A program made the translations under genes and the position numbers. 33,420 bases of DNA from a virus: IMG/VR virus record IMGVR_UViG_3300020395_000048, positions 1 through 33,420 of that record; one strand, given 5' to 3'. The notes under the pieces are model-generated. The model ran no database searches. It was given only the letters and a program-made list of their open reading frames with translations, and was not told where the DNA came from. Below are positions 30,226 to 33,343 of the stretch, in pieces. Every line of letters starts with the position of its first letter. The stretch's first letter is position 1.

Positions 30226-30654
30226 TTATATGTTTCGGAAGATGTGACCTGAGTCTGTTATCATATAATCCCATGAGAGATTTTCCCATGTGGCATCCCA
30301 GTCAATGTCAATCCAGTGTGGAATATCATAGCAGCATGACTCTGCTTCTTCTTTTGCGAAGTCTGCAGGGTCATCCCACTGACCACAATATGCTTCCGAA
30401 GCACCTTGAACACATTCTGGACCACCCACGTCGTCCAAATATTCGTCAAGTGCTTCCCTTGCATCATCCGCATATATGTCCTCAAGTTCTGTCATGTACT
30501 CCTCAAAATAACTGAATTTATCCTGCCCGTAGGTATCAAGATAGTCCAGCATATCACGCAATTCATAAGTCCCGTCCTCAACCCATTCGTCAATCTGATC
30601 GGTGACAATAGTGTCGTAGATCTCTTTGTAGTTTGAAGTGAGAGTAATTGCCAT
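30226..30654 (-). CDS. ArdA-like antirestriction protein, acidic DNA mimic (142 aa)
   Basis: The C-terminal half matches the ArdA pattern: ASEAYCGQWDDPADFAKEEA (residues 85-104; ArdA 'FxEAYxGxxxSxxDFA'), then IPHWIDIDWDATWENLSWDY (111-130; ArdA 'yiDyexxaRdl..dy') and the ending SGHIFRN (ArdA 'GHVFxN'). I count 39 Asp/Glu against 6 Lys/Arg, fitting a protein that mimics DNA and blocks type I restriction enzymes. The N-terminal half (1-80) is helical and acidic but not clearly the usual ArdA N-domain. Length is close to the ArdA norm of about 165-180, somewhat short. No strong ribosome binding site is seen. It is followed by its own terminator. It would protect incoming phage DNA; activity is inferred. 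Confidence 0.75.
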   Translation of the reverse strand: MAITLTSNYKEIYDTIVTDQIDEWVEDGTYELRDMLDYLDTYGQDKFSYFEEYMTELEDIYADDAREALDEYLDDVGGPECVQGASEAYCGQWDDPADFAKEEAESCCYDIPHWIDIDWDATWENLSWDYMITDSGHIFRNI

Positions 30655-30847
30655 TTAGTGAAGGGGGTAAAACTGCAGGGGACTTAGTTCTTTTTTTGGT
30701 AGCGAACCAAGGGGCGTTCCCAACTCCCCTGTTTTGCTTATATGAATATAATACATCCCACGCACCCCACTTTAAACCAAATGTGGACAGTCTGTGAACT
30801 GGTACAAAATCATTGACTTATGCCCCGTTTCATGAGATCATAATAAT
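30655..30847. other. Structured divergent intergenic region
   Basis: 193 bases between the ArdA-like gene (minus) and a plus-strand gene. CAGGGGA (30676-30682) pairs perfectly with TCCCCTG (30725-30731). Inside that is a smaller TTGGT/ACCAA-type hairpin beside a T7 run. TATAAT at 30747-30752 lies on the plus strand but lacks a -35. A weak TGT..CAGT/ACTG..ACA dyad lies at 30782-30806. The region probably holds divergent promoters. A small structured RNA is possible but not shown. Confidence 0.4.
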
Positions 30848-31464: not shown

Positions 31465-31487
31465 AAAAAAACCCCTAATAGGGGTTT
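31465..31487 (-). terminator. Intrinsic terminator upstream of the H1-like gene
   Basis: AAACCCC-TATTA-GGGGTTT on the minus strand, followed by a T run. It is the second of two hairpins in tandem after the 49-aa gene. The T tract leads straight into TTGGTATTATATG, a likely -10 for the next gene. Confidence 0.82.
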
Positions 31488-31886: not shown

Positions 31887-31910
31887 ATAAAAAACCCCTT
31901 TCGGGGTTTT
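31887..31910 (-). terminator. Intrinsic terminator after the FSYxTPVA protein gene
   Basis: AAAACCCC-GAAA-GGGGTTTT with further T on the minus strand, about 10 bases after the stop codon at 31921. Confidence 0.88.
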
Positions 31911-31920
31911 GTTGTAATAC

Positions 31921-32148
31921 TTAACCTGCAACCAGGTTATCAAAATAGGACTGCGGTTGATCTTTTGCAAGCACACCGTCTAACCATTTGTTGATGTGAC
32001 GTGATGTGGTCACTGACCATTTCTTAGAAGTTCTGTAATACCCGTTATCAGTTAGGCAAGCGACAGGTGTCTGGTAAGAGAACAAAACTGATGTGCCGTC
32101 TGAAAGATCCAACTGGGTCATGTTGGAAGCGATAGGGCGAAGTTGCAT
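31921..32148 (-). CDS. Conserved phage protein with FSYxTPVA and TTSRHINKW motifs (75 aa)
   Basis: The motifs VLFSYQTPVACLTDNGYYRT (residues 21-40) and KKWSVTTSRHINKWL (about 42-56) recur, as I recall, in small uncharacterised proteins across many phages and some bacteria. The fold is probably a small beta-rich domain. A strong ribosome binding site (AAAAGGAG, 5 bases from the ATG) fixes the start. Composite element A lies immediately upstream and an intrinsic terminator immediately downstream, so this is a single-gene unit. The biological role is unknown to me. The family resemblance is the best among the mini-genes here. Confidence 0.8.
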   Translation of the reverse strand: MQLRPIASNMTQLDLSDGTSVLFSYQTPVACLTDNGYYRTSKKWSVTTSRHINKWLDGVLAKDQPQSYFDNLVAG

Positions 32149-32170: not shown

Positions 32171-32233
32171 TATATAATAAACCCCCACTCTTACGAATGG
32201 GGGAAATGTGTGCCAGTTTATAGGGTGGCATAC
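32171..32233 (-). promoter_or_regulatory. Composite intergenic element A (dyad + hairpin + TTTATTATATA)
   Basis: On the minus strand: GTATGCCA/TGGCACAC dyad (32233-32208) spanning the stop codon of the upstream gene, then CCCCCA/TGGGGG hairpin (32203-32182), then TTTATTATATA (32181-32171), then a ribosome binding site. The hairpin plus T-rich tail is probably a terminator, and TATTATATA could act as a -10 box for the next gene. Confidence 0.65.
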
Positions 32234-32451
32234 TCCCTAACTTGGCACTCATGCAAATCATTTAAAGTTGAGATGCAATTATTGACCATCCTGCGGATGA
32301 CCTGCCTGGTTGGTGTGCTTGCGTAATCTTCAGTAAAAGGGGCGTACTCTTTTATGATTCGATTAACGCAAATTGAAACGTCGCTGCTGCCAATCTCTTC
32401 AACATCAGTGAACATAAAATCCACATTGTCAGAAATGATTTCAAAAAGCAT
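32218..32451 (-). CDS. Small acidic protein of unknown function (77 aa)
   Basis: I take the ATG at 32449-32451 (MLFEIISDNVDFMFTDVEEI) because CGGAGCACCC lies just before it. That closely matches the ribosome-binding region of the next gene (AGGAGCACTC). An ATG at 32475 would add 8 residues but has no such site. Features include an acidic N-terminal half and a 'STPTRQVIRRMVNNCISTLN' helix (about 48-67). The last codons (ECQVREYATL) are encoded across one arm of composite element A. No family is recognised. Confidence 0.68.
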   Translation of the reverse strand: MLFEIISDNVDFMFTDVEEIGSSDVSICVNRIIKEYAPFTEDYASTPTRQVIRRMVNNCISTLNDLHECQVREYATL

Positions 32452-32474
32452 GGGTGCTCCGTTTTGTTTACTCA

Positions 32475-32537
32475 TTAATAATAAACCCCTACTCTCACGA
32501 ATAGGGGTTTAGTGTGCCAGTTTGTCAAGTGGATAAC
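32475..32537 (-). promoter_or_regulatory. Composite intergenic element B
   Basis: On the minus strand: degenerate GTTATCCA/TGGCACAC dyad (32537-32512) spanning the stop codon of the 46-aa gene, then a perfect 9-bp AAACCCCTA/TAGGGGTTT hairpin (32510-32483), then ATTATTAATG. The loop sequence TTCGTGAGAG resembles that of element A (TTCGTAAGAG). Confidence 0.65.
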
Positions 32538-32665
32538 TCAGCCGAAATGTGCAATTCCCATACGTTCGGAGTTAGACCGTCCCGTGTCATTGCCTCAAGT
32601 GCAATTTGTGACACGGTTTCTAACTCATCAGGAGTTAGCAGTTCATAGAGGTCAATCATTGGCAT
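32525..32665 (-). CDS. Mini-protein with LTPDE motif (46 aa)
   Basis: Reads from the ATG at 32663-32665 to TGA at 32525-32527. It begins MPMIDLYELLTPDELETVSQ and ends VWELHISAELST. It is acidic and Leu-rich. The 'LTPDELETV' string parallels 'LTTDEMLDLC' in the 59-aa protein upstream and 'LSESEIAILC' in the 43-aa protein. It overlaps the end of the 59-aa gene by 10 bases, so the two are translationally coupled. Composite element B overlaps its stop codon. Confidence 0.62.
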   Translation of the reverse strand: MPMIDLYELLTPDELETVSQIALEAMTRDGLTPNVWELHISAELST

Positions 32666-32835
32666 AGGTCGTCGAACATTCTTTGTGCGGTTTGTTCTAT
32701 TGCTTCAACTGTGCCTTTGGAGAATGAACAGAGATCAAGCATCTCATCAGTTGTGAGTTTGTTGCTAACTCTGAAATCCTCCCACGCTTCGTCAAAACAA
32801 TTTTCAAGGATTGATTCGTTTTGTAGGGTGCTCAT
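32656..32835 (-). CDS. Mini-protein with LTTDE motif (59 aa)
   Basis: Reads from the ATG at 32833-32835, with a clear ribosome binding site AAAGGA 7 bases before it, to TGA at 32656-32658. It begins MSTLQNESILENCFDEAWED, with 'LTTDEMLDLCSFSKG' at 27-41, and ends FDDLCQ. It is acidic with three Cys. Bounded upstream by composite element C, it forms a two-gene unit with the 46-aa gene. No known domain. Confidence 0.68.
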   Translation of the reverse strand: MSTLQNESILENCFDEAWEDFRVSNKLTTDEMLDLCSFSKGTVEAIEQTAQRMFDDLCQ

Positions 32836-32871
32836 AGTTGGTTCCTTTACTACTCTTTAATATTAAATTAT

Positions 32872-32923
32872 CATCAGCACGAATGGGAAAACCCTATGCC
32901 AGTATGTGGATTGGCACAGGGTT
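32872..32923 (-). promoter_or_regulatory. Composite intergenic element C (degenerate)
   Basis: On the minus strand AACCCTGTGCCA pairs with TGGCATAGGGTT (32923-32912 with 32901-32890) over 12 bases with one mismatch, and is followed by TTTT. Next comes CCCATTCGTG (32886-32877), the remnant of the C5 arm and loop seen in A and B, without its partner arm. Here the dyad itself seems to have become the terminator. Confidence 0.55.
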
Positions 32924-32961
32924 AAAAAATCAGGCCGCCCCGCATCGCTCAGAGGCGATGC
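32924..32961 (-). terminator. Hairpin and T run after the 66-aa gene
   Basis: GCATCGC-CTCTGA-GCGATGC (32961-32942) is a perfect 7-bp stem whose loop contains the stop codon of the 66-aa gene. It is followed by GGGGCGGCCTGA and six T (32929-32924). The spacer to the T run is longer than usual. Confidence 0.6.
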
Positions 32962-33149
32962 ACGAGGCGATAATAAATGTTTACTAATTCCGTTACCTGC
33001 TCAACCTCTAACGCATCGCCCTCCCAATCTTCAACAAATAATTTGTTATCAAAATCAGGTGTGCCATCTACGAAGGTTGGGGCACTCATCAGTTTTCTAC
33101 TTGAGCAATCTAACCAGAATGATTGCCCCAGAGTTTCAGAATGGATCAT
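32949..33149 (-). CDS. Small protein of unknown function (66 aa)
   Basis: I start at the ATG 33147-33149 (MIHSETLGQSFWLDCSSRKL), which overlaps the stop of the 43-aa gene in ATGA form with a GGGAGA upstream. A longer frame to 33236 would lie inside that gene in another phase and is unlikely. Features are 'FWLDCSSRKLMSAPTFVDG' (11-29), an acidic middle, and a helical end (VTELVNIYYRLVHRL). Its stop codon sits in the loop of a hairpin. No family is recognised. Confidence 0.65.
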   Translation of the reverse strand: MIHSETLGQSFWLDCSSRKLMSAPTFVDGTPDFDNKLFVEDWEGDALEVEQVTELVNIYYRLVHRL

Positions 33150-33277
33150 TTTGTGATTTTCTCCCAAAGGGCATCGAATTCGGGTGTTTCGGATATTGGC
33201 ATATCCAAAGCAGCAGTTTCTGAAAAGAGTTCGCAAAGGATTGCGATTTCAGATTCGGATAATGAAATTTGTTTCAT
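33146..33277 (-). CDS. Mini-protein with LSESE motif (43 aa)
   Basis: Reads from the ATG at 33275-33277 to TGA at 33146-33148. It begins MKQISLSESEIAILCELFSE and ends FDALWEKITK. An in-frame ATG two codons upstream (33283) is also possible. Neither has a ribosome binding site, and both lie within a few bases of the TATTATATG tail of composite element D, so a leaderless or very short-leader message is possible. The pattern 'SEIAILC' matches 'DEITALC' in the partial gene upstream and 'DEMLDLC' in the 59-aa protein. Confidence 0.62.
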   Translation of the reverse strand: MKQISLSESEIAILCELFSETAALDMPISETPEFDALWEKITK

Positions 33278-33281
33278 AAGC

Positions 33282-33343
33282 ATATAATAAACCCCCATCG
33301 GTGAAAATGGGGGTTTTGTGTGCCGATTTAATTATTGGCACAC
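33282..33343 (-). promoter_or_regulatory. Composite intergenic element D
   Basis: On the minus strand: perfect GTGTGCC/GGCACAC dyad (33343-33318) spanning the stop codon of the upstream gene, then a perfect 10-bp AAACCCCCAT/ATGGGGGTTT hairpin (33316-33289), then ATTATAT (33288-33282). It is the best-preserved copy. Confidence 0.7.

Follow-up and report, generated by a model that had tools for sequence, protein, structure and literature searches.

Candidate gene-junction cassettes with an operator-like dyad, a nested terminator and a host-type promoter in a T4-like marine cyanophage

Introduction

A composite intergenic element recurs between minus-strand mini-genes near one end of a viral DNA record, and the question that it raises is whether it ends one transcript, starts the next, does both, or is a homology block by which mini-genes are exchanged. 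The window analysed here is the whole virus record, 33,420 bases. In all likelihood, the element is a gene-junction cassette that combines an operator-like dyad, a nested terminator and a host-type promoter, and it is located in what is predicted to be the early region of a T4-like cyanophage.

Results

The window and its small-gene cluster

Judged by its sequence, the window is a fragment of a P-SSM2-like, T4-like marine cyanophage of the Kyanoviridae. Its large genes follow the baseplate gene order of P-SSM2 (gp25-gp6-gp7-gp8), and stretches of the window align to P-SSM2, P-SSM5 and other marine cyanophages at around 70-88%. Elements A-D lie within a minus-strand cluster of small genes; several of these mini-genes have homologues in P-SSM2 at 66.7-68.8 kb, where the order differs, and the dyad/-10 pattern is concentrated in the small-gene region upstream of gp25. 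A Pfam search with ten mini-gene and neighbouring proteins gave no match. In P-SSM2, an open frame homologous to the window gene at 32656-32835 (locus L123, 18589-18768) is unannotated in the record.

Gene distribution and parts of the copies

The preliminary description of this DNA reported four minus-strand copies; all four are present, but a fifth dyad (E), at 30783-30806, had been missed. The five dyads of the window (A-D and E) score 15.7-24.2 bits by a position weight matrix built from related loci, and the same matrix gives no match on shuffled sequence. The features are as follows (z, RNA folding z-score):

32209-32232, minus strand: element A, operator-like dyad TATGCCACCCTATAAACTGGCACA; the stop codon TAA (32218-32220) of the upstream gene is at the dyad centre
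32182-32203, minus strand: element A, predicted intrinsic terminator CCCCCATTC-GTAA-GAGTGGGGG with a GNRA loop, then TTTATTAT; z -3.2
32174-32179, minus strand: element A, -10 box TATTAT, first base at +41 from the dyad centre; transcription start predicted at about 32167
31921-32148, minus strand: 75-aa gene read from element A, phrog_5643 (family of unknown function), with a GGAG ribosome site
32513-32536, minus strand: element B, dyad TTATCCACTTGACAAACTGGCACA, containing the stop codon TGA of the upstream gene
32482-32511, minus strand: element B, predicted terminator TAAACCCCTATTC-GTGA-GAGTAGGGGTTTA with a GNRA loop; z -3.7
32478-32483, minus strand: element B, -10 box TATTAT at +41, overlapped by the end of the terminator
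32218-32451, minus strand: 77-aa gene read from element B, start ATG at 32451
32895-32918, minus strand: element C, dyad TGTGCCAATCCACATACTGGCATA, within a longer stem (32890-32923; z -4.3)
32860-32865, minus strand: element C, -10 box TAATAT (not TTTATTAT) at +41
32656-32835, minus strand: 59-aa gene (phrog_14136) read from element C; the next gene is at 32525-32665
33319-33342, minus strand: element D, dyad TGTGCCAATAATTAAATCGGCACA, with the stop codon TAA of the upstream gene at the dyad centre
33289-33317, minus strand: element D, predicted terminator AAACCCCCAT..ATGGGGGTTT; z -5.3
33284-33289, minus strand: element D, -10 box TATTAT at +41; the next ATG (33277) coincides with the predicted +1, 12 bases further
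33146-33277, minus strand: mini-gene read from element D, with a predicted leaderless start
30783-30806, no strand assigned: fifth dyad E, between divergent genes; -10 box TATTAT on the minus side (30748-30753, +41) and TTGACT...CATAAT on the plus side
30226-30654, minus strand: gene read from E, anti-restriction protein family phrog_36653

Elements A, B and D show, on the minus strand, the order that had been proposed for all four copies: dyad, A-rich spacer, C4-5/G4-5 hairpin, TTTATTAT and the next gene. Element C departs from it, since its spacer contains no separate C4/G4 hairpin and its -10 box is TAATAT; its dyad, extended to a stem of 12 bp (AACCCTGTGCC...GGCATAGGGTT) with TTTT behind it, is terminator-like, and a box CCCATTCGT is found in its -35 region without a hairpin. 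The ten-base loop that had been read in A and B gives way to GNRA tetraloops, C(GUAA)G in A and C(GUGA)G in B, on which the stems close. A range of dyad quality is indeed seen, with perfect outer arms in D (GTGTGCC/GGCACAC) and imperfect dyads in B and C, but the dyad of A is imperfect too. As for the constant spacing of the preliminary description, it holds between the dyad and the -10 box, which begins exactly 41 bases past the dyad centre in each of A-D, but not between the dyad and the hairpin, whose axis moves. For the 77-aa gene of element B, a longer open reading frame to 32475 would start at the -10/start region. Dyad E is divergent and serves genes on both strands, and no terminator is found on either side of it. 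Two further junctions with a terminator and a -10 box, in which the dyad is decayed or absent, are located on the minus strand at 31469-31487 and 31891-31910.

Distance between the dyad and the -10 box, and predicted start sites

Related loci were gathered from viral contigs, by one scan for the pattern and three for proteins; sites picked by the dyad alone were then thinned so that they differed at more than 20 positions in 85, which left 204 non-redundant sites. The dyad consensus is TGTGNCASTT-N4-AASTGNCACA and it lies upstream of a TATAAT-type -10 box at a fixed distance: TATWMT starts 41 bases after the dyad centre in 48 of the 204 sites, 42 bases in 26, 43 in 10 and 40 in five, and each other distance is found in zero to two, with the caveat that site selection and common ancestry could inflate these and the following statistics, despite the thinning. 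Around half of these orientation-specific dyad hits show no -10 box in that orientation, partly because palindromes are seen from both sides. The distance is unchanged at sites without a hairpin. In the small-gene cluster of P-SSM2, TATAAT stands at 41 or 42 in most of the stronger sites, and most -10 boxes of this phage end 22-30 bases ahead of the annotated start; Syn9 contains six sites with a -10-like box at 40 or 41. In 42 of 62 codirectional cases, the dyad contains the stop codon of the upstream gene, usually at its centre, which may be why the upstream arm of the dyad is the weaker one. Dense tandem and divergent dyads, in largely non-coding DNA, are found at L123 16336-16620 (P-SSM2 66.3-66.6 kb), L004 33-420, L007 6180-6300 and L100 2054-2466, each perhaps a regulatory hub.

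When sites are aligned on the -10 box, the predicted +1, 12 bases past the first base of the box, is a purine in 96%; a TATAAT-like -10 box followed by a purine start at about this distance is the arrangement of a host-type sigma70 promoter. The -35 region is poorer: at least four of six matches to TTGACA at 16-18 bases are found in 40 of 113 sites (12 in shuffles), and in most sites this hexamer is weak or absent. Hexamers with five of six matches are present in 12 sites, against 1.2 in shuffles, and this enrichment suggests that some of the promoters may not need an activator. Start codons form two groups. In one, of 18 sites, the ATG is exactly at the predicted +1, and 17 of these sites show no ribosome site; the other is broad, 27-35 bases after the -10 start. 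The coincidence of ATG with the predicted first transcribed base gives independent support for the promoter. The ATG of element D (33277) is of the first type, and together with 17 related sites it would represent a leaderless class of cyanophage mini-genes.

Distribution in phages and hosts, and a probable protein partner of the dyad

A scan with a half-site plus -10 pattern, with reversed controls, gave 86 matches in 10 of 11 members of the Kyanoviridae and allies, and three in all the reversed controls. S-SSM7 contains 17 matches, P-SSM2 and P-SSM5 contain 14 each, P-TIM40 contains 10, P-HM2 and S-CAM7 seven each, S-PM2 six, Syn19 five, and Syn9 and P-SSM4 three each (P-HM2, a T4-like cyanophage, is recorded as Eurybiavirus with no family given). 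The exception is S-SM2 (GU071095), a member of the Kyanoviridae with no match to the pattern, in which an altered motif or a lost regulator would be informative. T4, P-SSP7 and Ma-LMM01 show no match either. The further copies that the preliminary description called for are therefore present in many related genomes. In 151 host-family genomes, 34 matches were found against 38, by our count, in reversed controls, and a near-perfect dyad is present in only eight of the 151. The pattern is found in the phages and is not above chance in the hosts, so it appears to belong to this phage group rather than to a host regulon.

The perfect palindrome gives 65 hits in the genome collection, against approximately 15 estimated by chance, many of them in Acidobacteria and Nostocales. 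These lack the -10 arrangement and, with the exception of one cyanophage contig that had been mis-binned, were set aside as a different palindrome family. Six loci of Pyrinomonadaceae (L133, L142, L150, L162, L178 and L181) and six of Nostocales and relatives (L134, L167, L172, L176, L190 and L191) show this similar palindrome, mostly TGTGACASTT-N4-AASTGTCACA, without the phage -10 arrangement. In genome G002 (locus L194; title, Flavobacteriales TMED113) there are ten dyads and a -10 box at 41, apparently on mis-binned cyanophage contigs.

A protein dimer would bind the dyad and help the host RNA polymerase where the -35 of a promoter is weak or gives way to a terminator. Assistance to the polymerase is probable because the spacing allows little variation and the terminator often occupies the -35 region, and the position of the dyad suggests activation rather than repression. 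Since the dyad is not present above chance in the hosts, the binding protein is probably phage-encoded. A dyad that serves as a repressor site for later shut-off of an ordinary host-type promoter seems somewhat unlikely to us: it would agree with a probably phage-made binder, as the dyad is not above chance in host genomes, with the enrichment of -35-like hexamers, and with the consideration that the first transcripts could not depend on an early phage product unless the virion brought it in, but the dyad is centred near -53, outside the -35/-10 region, at the strictly fixed spacing expected for polymerase contact, and a good -35 is missing at most sites.

Early promoters normally use factors present at entry, and cyanophages do borrow host PhoB sites (PMC10976474), which would fit sites that bind a host regulator borrowed by the phage. 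Such borrowing has, nevertheless, a low probability, given the 34 matches against 38 in the 151 host-family genomes, the near-perfect dyad in eight of them and a consensus unlike the NtcA and Pho boxes listed in PMC3037559; a host regulon was rejected because neither the dyad nor the pattern is enriched in host genomes.

The hairpin as a predicted nested terminator, and gene order around the cassette

The hairpin is a separate, predicted intrinsic terminator lodged in the gap between operator and promoter. Gap stems with at least four G-C pairs are found in 56 of 113 sites, against five (maximum nine) in shuffles. The gap hairpin depends on gene context, being present in 41 of 62 sites with a same-strand gene ending at the dyad and in nine of the 44 others (p=4e-6). 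Its axis, length and sequence vary among sites, and changes on both sides keep the stem paired; dyad and hairpin are independent of each other. Thus, stems kept as pairs and placed after codirectional genes are found, as for terminators. The hairpins of A, B and D show a GC-rich stem, a short loop and then a T run, which is short (TTTATTAT), so termination at these three elements may be partial. The likeness to intrinsic (Rho-independent) terminators extends to the GC stem, the tetraloop, the T run and the pairs kept by both-side changes; the difference is that here the terminator lies inside the promoter of the next gene and its T run merges with the -10 box. The box CCCATTCGT in the -35 region is found with and without a hairpin and is part of the stem in A and B. 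Transcript end and next promoter in one cassette, as had been suggested, agree with the fixed spacing, the codirectional terminators, the purine +1 and the two start-codon distances.

Members of the 75-aa gene family that is read from element A are preceded, depending on the phage, by several unrelated gene families, and in most of these cases the cassette lies between the two genes; eight or more upstream families were counted after mis-called upstream frames in L021, L024, L033 and L056 were set aside. The expectation that flanking genes differ and the element stays is thus borne out. This arrangement, and the gene order that differs between P-SSM2 and the window, would be expected of a recombination or homology block for mini-gene exchange. 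We consider such a block improbable as the explanation of the cassette, since it leaves the fixed -10 spacing and the context-dependent terminators unexplained, cassette sequences differ much between sites, and reshuffling may just be tolerated, each gene bringing its own promoter and terminator. Indeed, the mini-genes would be reorderable because each carries its own start and the stop signal of its neighbour.

The dyad as a probable DNA operator

Stem covariation, which had been expected for both structures, is found in the hairpin, where pairs are kept via changes on both sides, but not in the dyad. Across the dyad, the 113 sites with a -10 box show no base-pair covariation, and complementarity is no greater than the column expectation: the column pair -5/+4 is G-C in 42 sites, G-G in 30 and C-C in 15. 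A protein that reads two DNA half-sites would tolerate G-G and C-C oppositions, and a hairpin would not. Rfam gave no match to a described RNA family. Lacking covariation, the dyad is better understood as a DNA operator near -53 than as an RNA structure, and the proposed role of a dyad hairpin in protecting 3' ends is unlikely to be a conserved one. The proposal that the upstream transcript carries two RNA structures, one for termination and one for 3'-end protection, is very improbable. In its favour, both can be folded as RNA in A and D, and the dyad of C is lengthened into a terminator-like stem. Against it, the dyad, rejected as an RNA structure for want of covariation, shows G-G and C-C at 45 of 113 sites in one pair, is also located between the divergent genes of site E, and has its fixed spacing to the -10 box, not to the hairpin.

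Comparison with known promoters and elements

The cassette, read as operator, nested terminator and promoter, resembles the T4 middle promoters (MotA box, host sigma70, AsiA) in that a phage-specific upstream site replaces the -35 and a host-type -10 box is kept. It differs from them in that the MotA box is near -30 and is not palindromic, whereas the cassette dyad is palindromic and near -53, and T4 itself has no match to the pattern. T4-like middle promoters are missing from marine T4-like cyanophages, as are motA and/or asiA (PMC5780444). Class I and class II activator-dependent sigma70 promoters (CRP, NtcA) share with the cassette a palindrome at a fixed helical phase upstream of the -10 box and a poor -35; however, the cassette centre is near -53 and not at -41.5 or -61.5, its consensus is TGTG-N16-CACA, and no host regulon is seen.

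A novel element that controls early genes in Syn9 and P-TIM40, and is conserved among T4-like cyanophages, was reportedly found by Doron et al. in 2016, and we presume that the cassette is probably this Syn9 early-gene regulatory element. Identity of the two motifs is likely: the phage family is the same, Syn9 and P-TIM40 both carry our motif, and the pattern is widely present in T4-like cyanophages, as for that element. The literature covered, Doron et al. 2016 aside, contained no description of the motif, and the nested terminator, the in-operator stop codon and the leaderless subset are details that we have not met in print. The available portions of the 2010 cyanophage comparison, in which sigma70, T4 late, Pho and NtcA sites were sought, name no such palindrome (PMC3037559).

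Discussion

At each gene junction of the predicted early region, a cassette of approximately 70-90 bases would act in five steps. The stop codon of the upstream gene would lie within an operator-like palindrome; an intrinsic terminator would end the upstream transcript; a host-type -10 box would overlap the T run of the terminator; transcription would begin some 12 bases past the first base of this box; and the next gene would be read either by a leader and a ribosome site or from an ATG at the first base. The host RNA polymerase would start at the -10 box, probably assisted by a dimeric protein on the dyad, centred near -53. The genes behind the cassette are probably expressed early: the gene that follows site E encodes an anti-restriction protein (phrog_36653), which is suggestive of early expression, as anti-restriction is a typical early function. 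If so, the dyad-binding protein may come with the virion.

More tentatively, a phage-encoded and possibly virion-delivered protein might activate early promoters via a palindrome near -53 that is absent from the host; terminator-bearing promoters of host type would thereby become phage-specific, and the mini-genes would be freely shuffled, self-contained units, some of them leaderless. If this is true, each mini-gene is a plug-in unit with its own operator, promoter and upstream terminator. Cyanophage early genes encode mostly small proteins of unknown role that take over the most abundant marine photosynthetic cells. With a motif of exact spacing, early promoters, likely starts and leaderless genes would be predictable from sequence, uncultured phages included, and the dyad could serve as DNA bait in the search for the missing early regulator.
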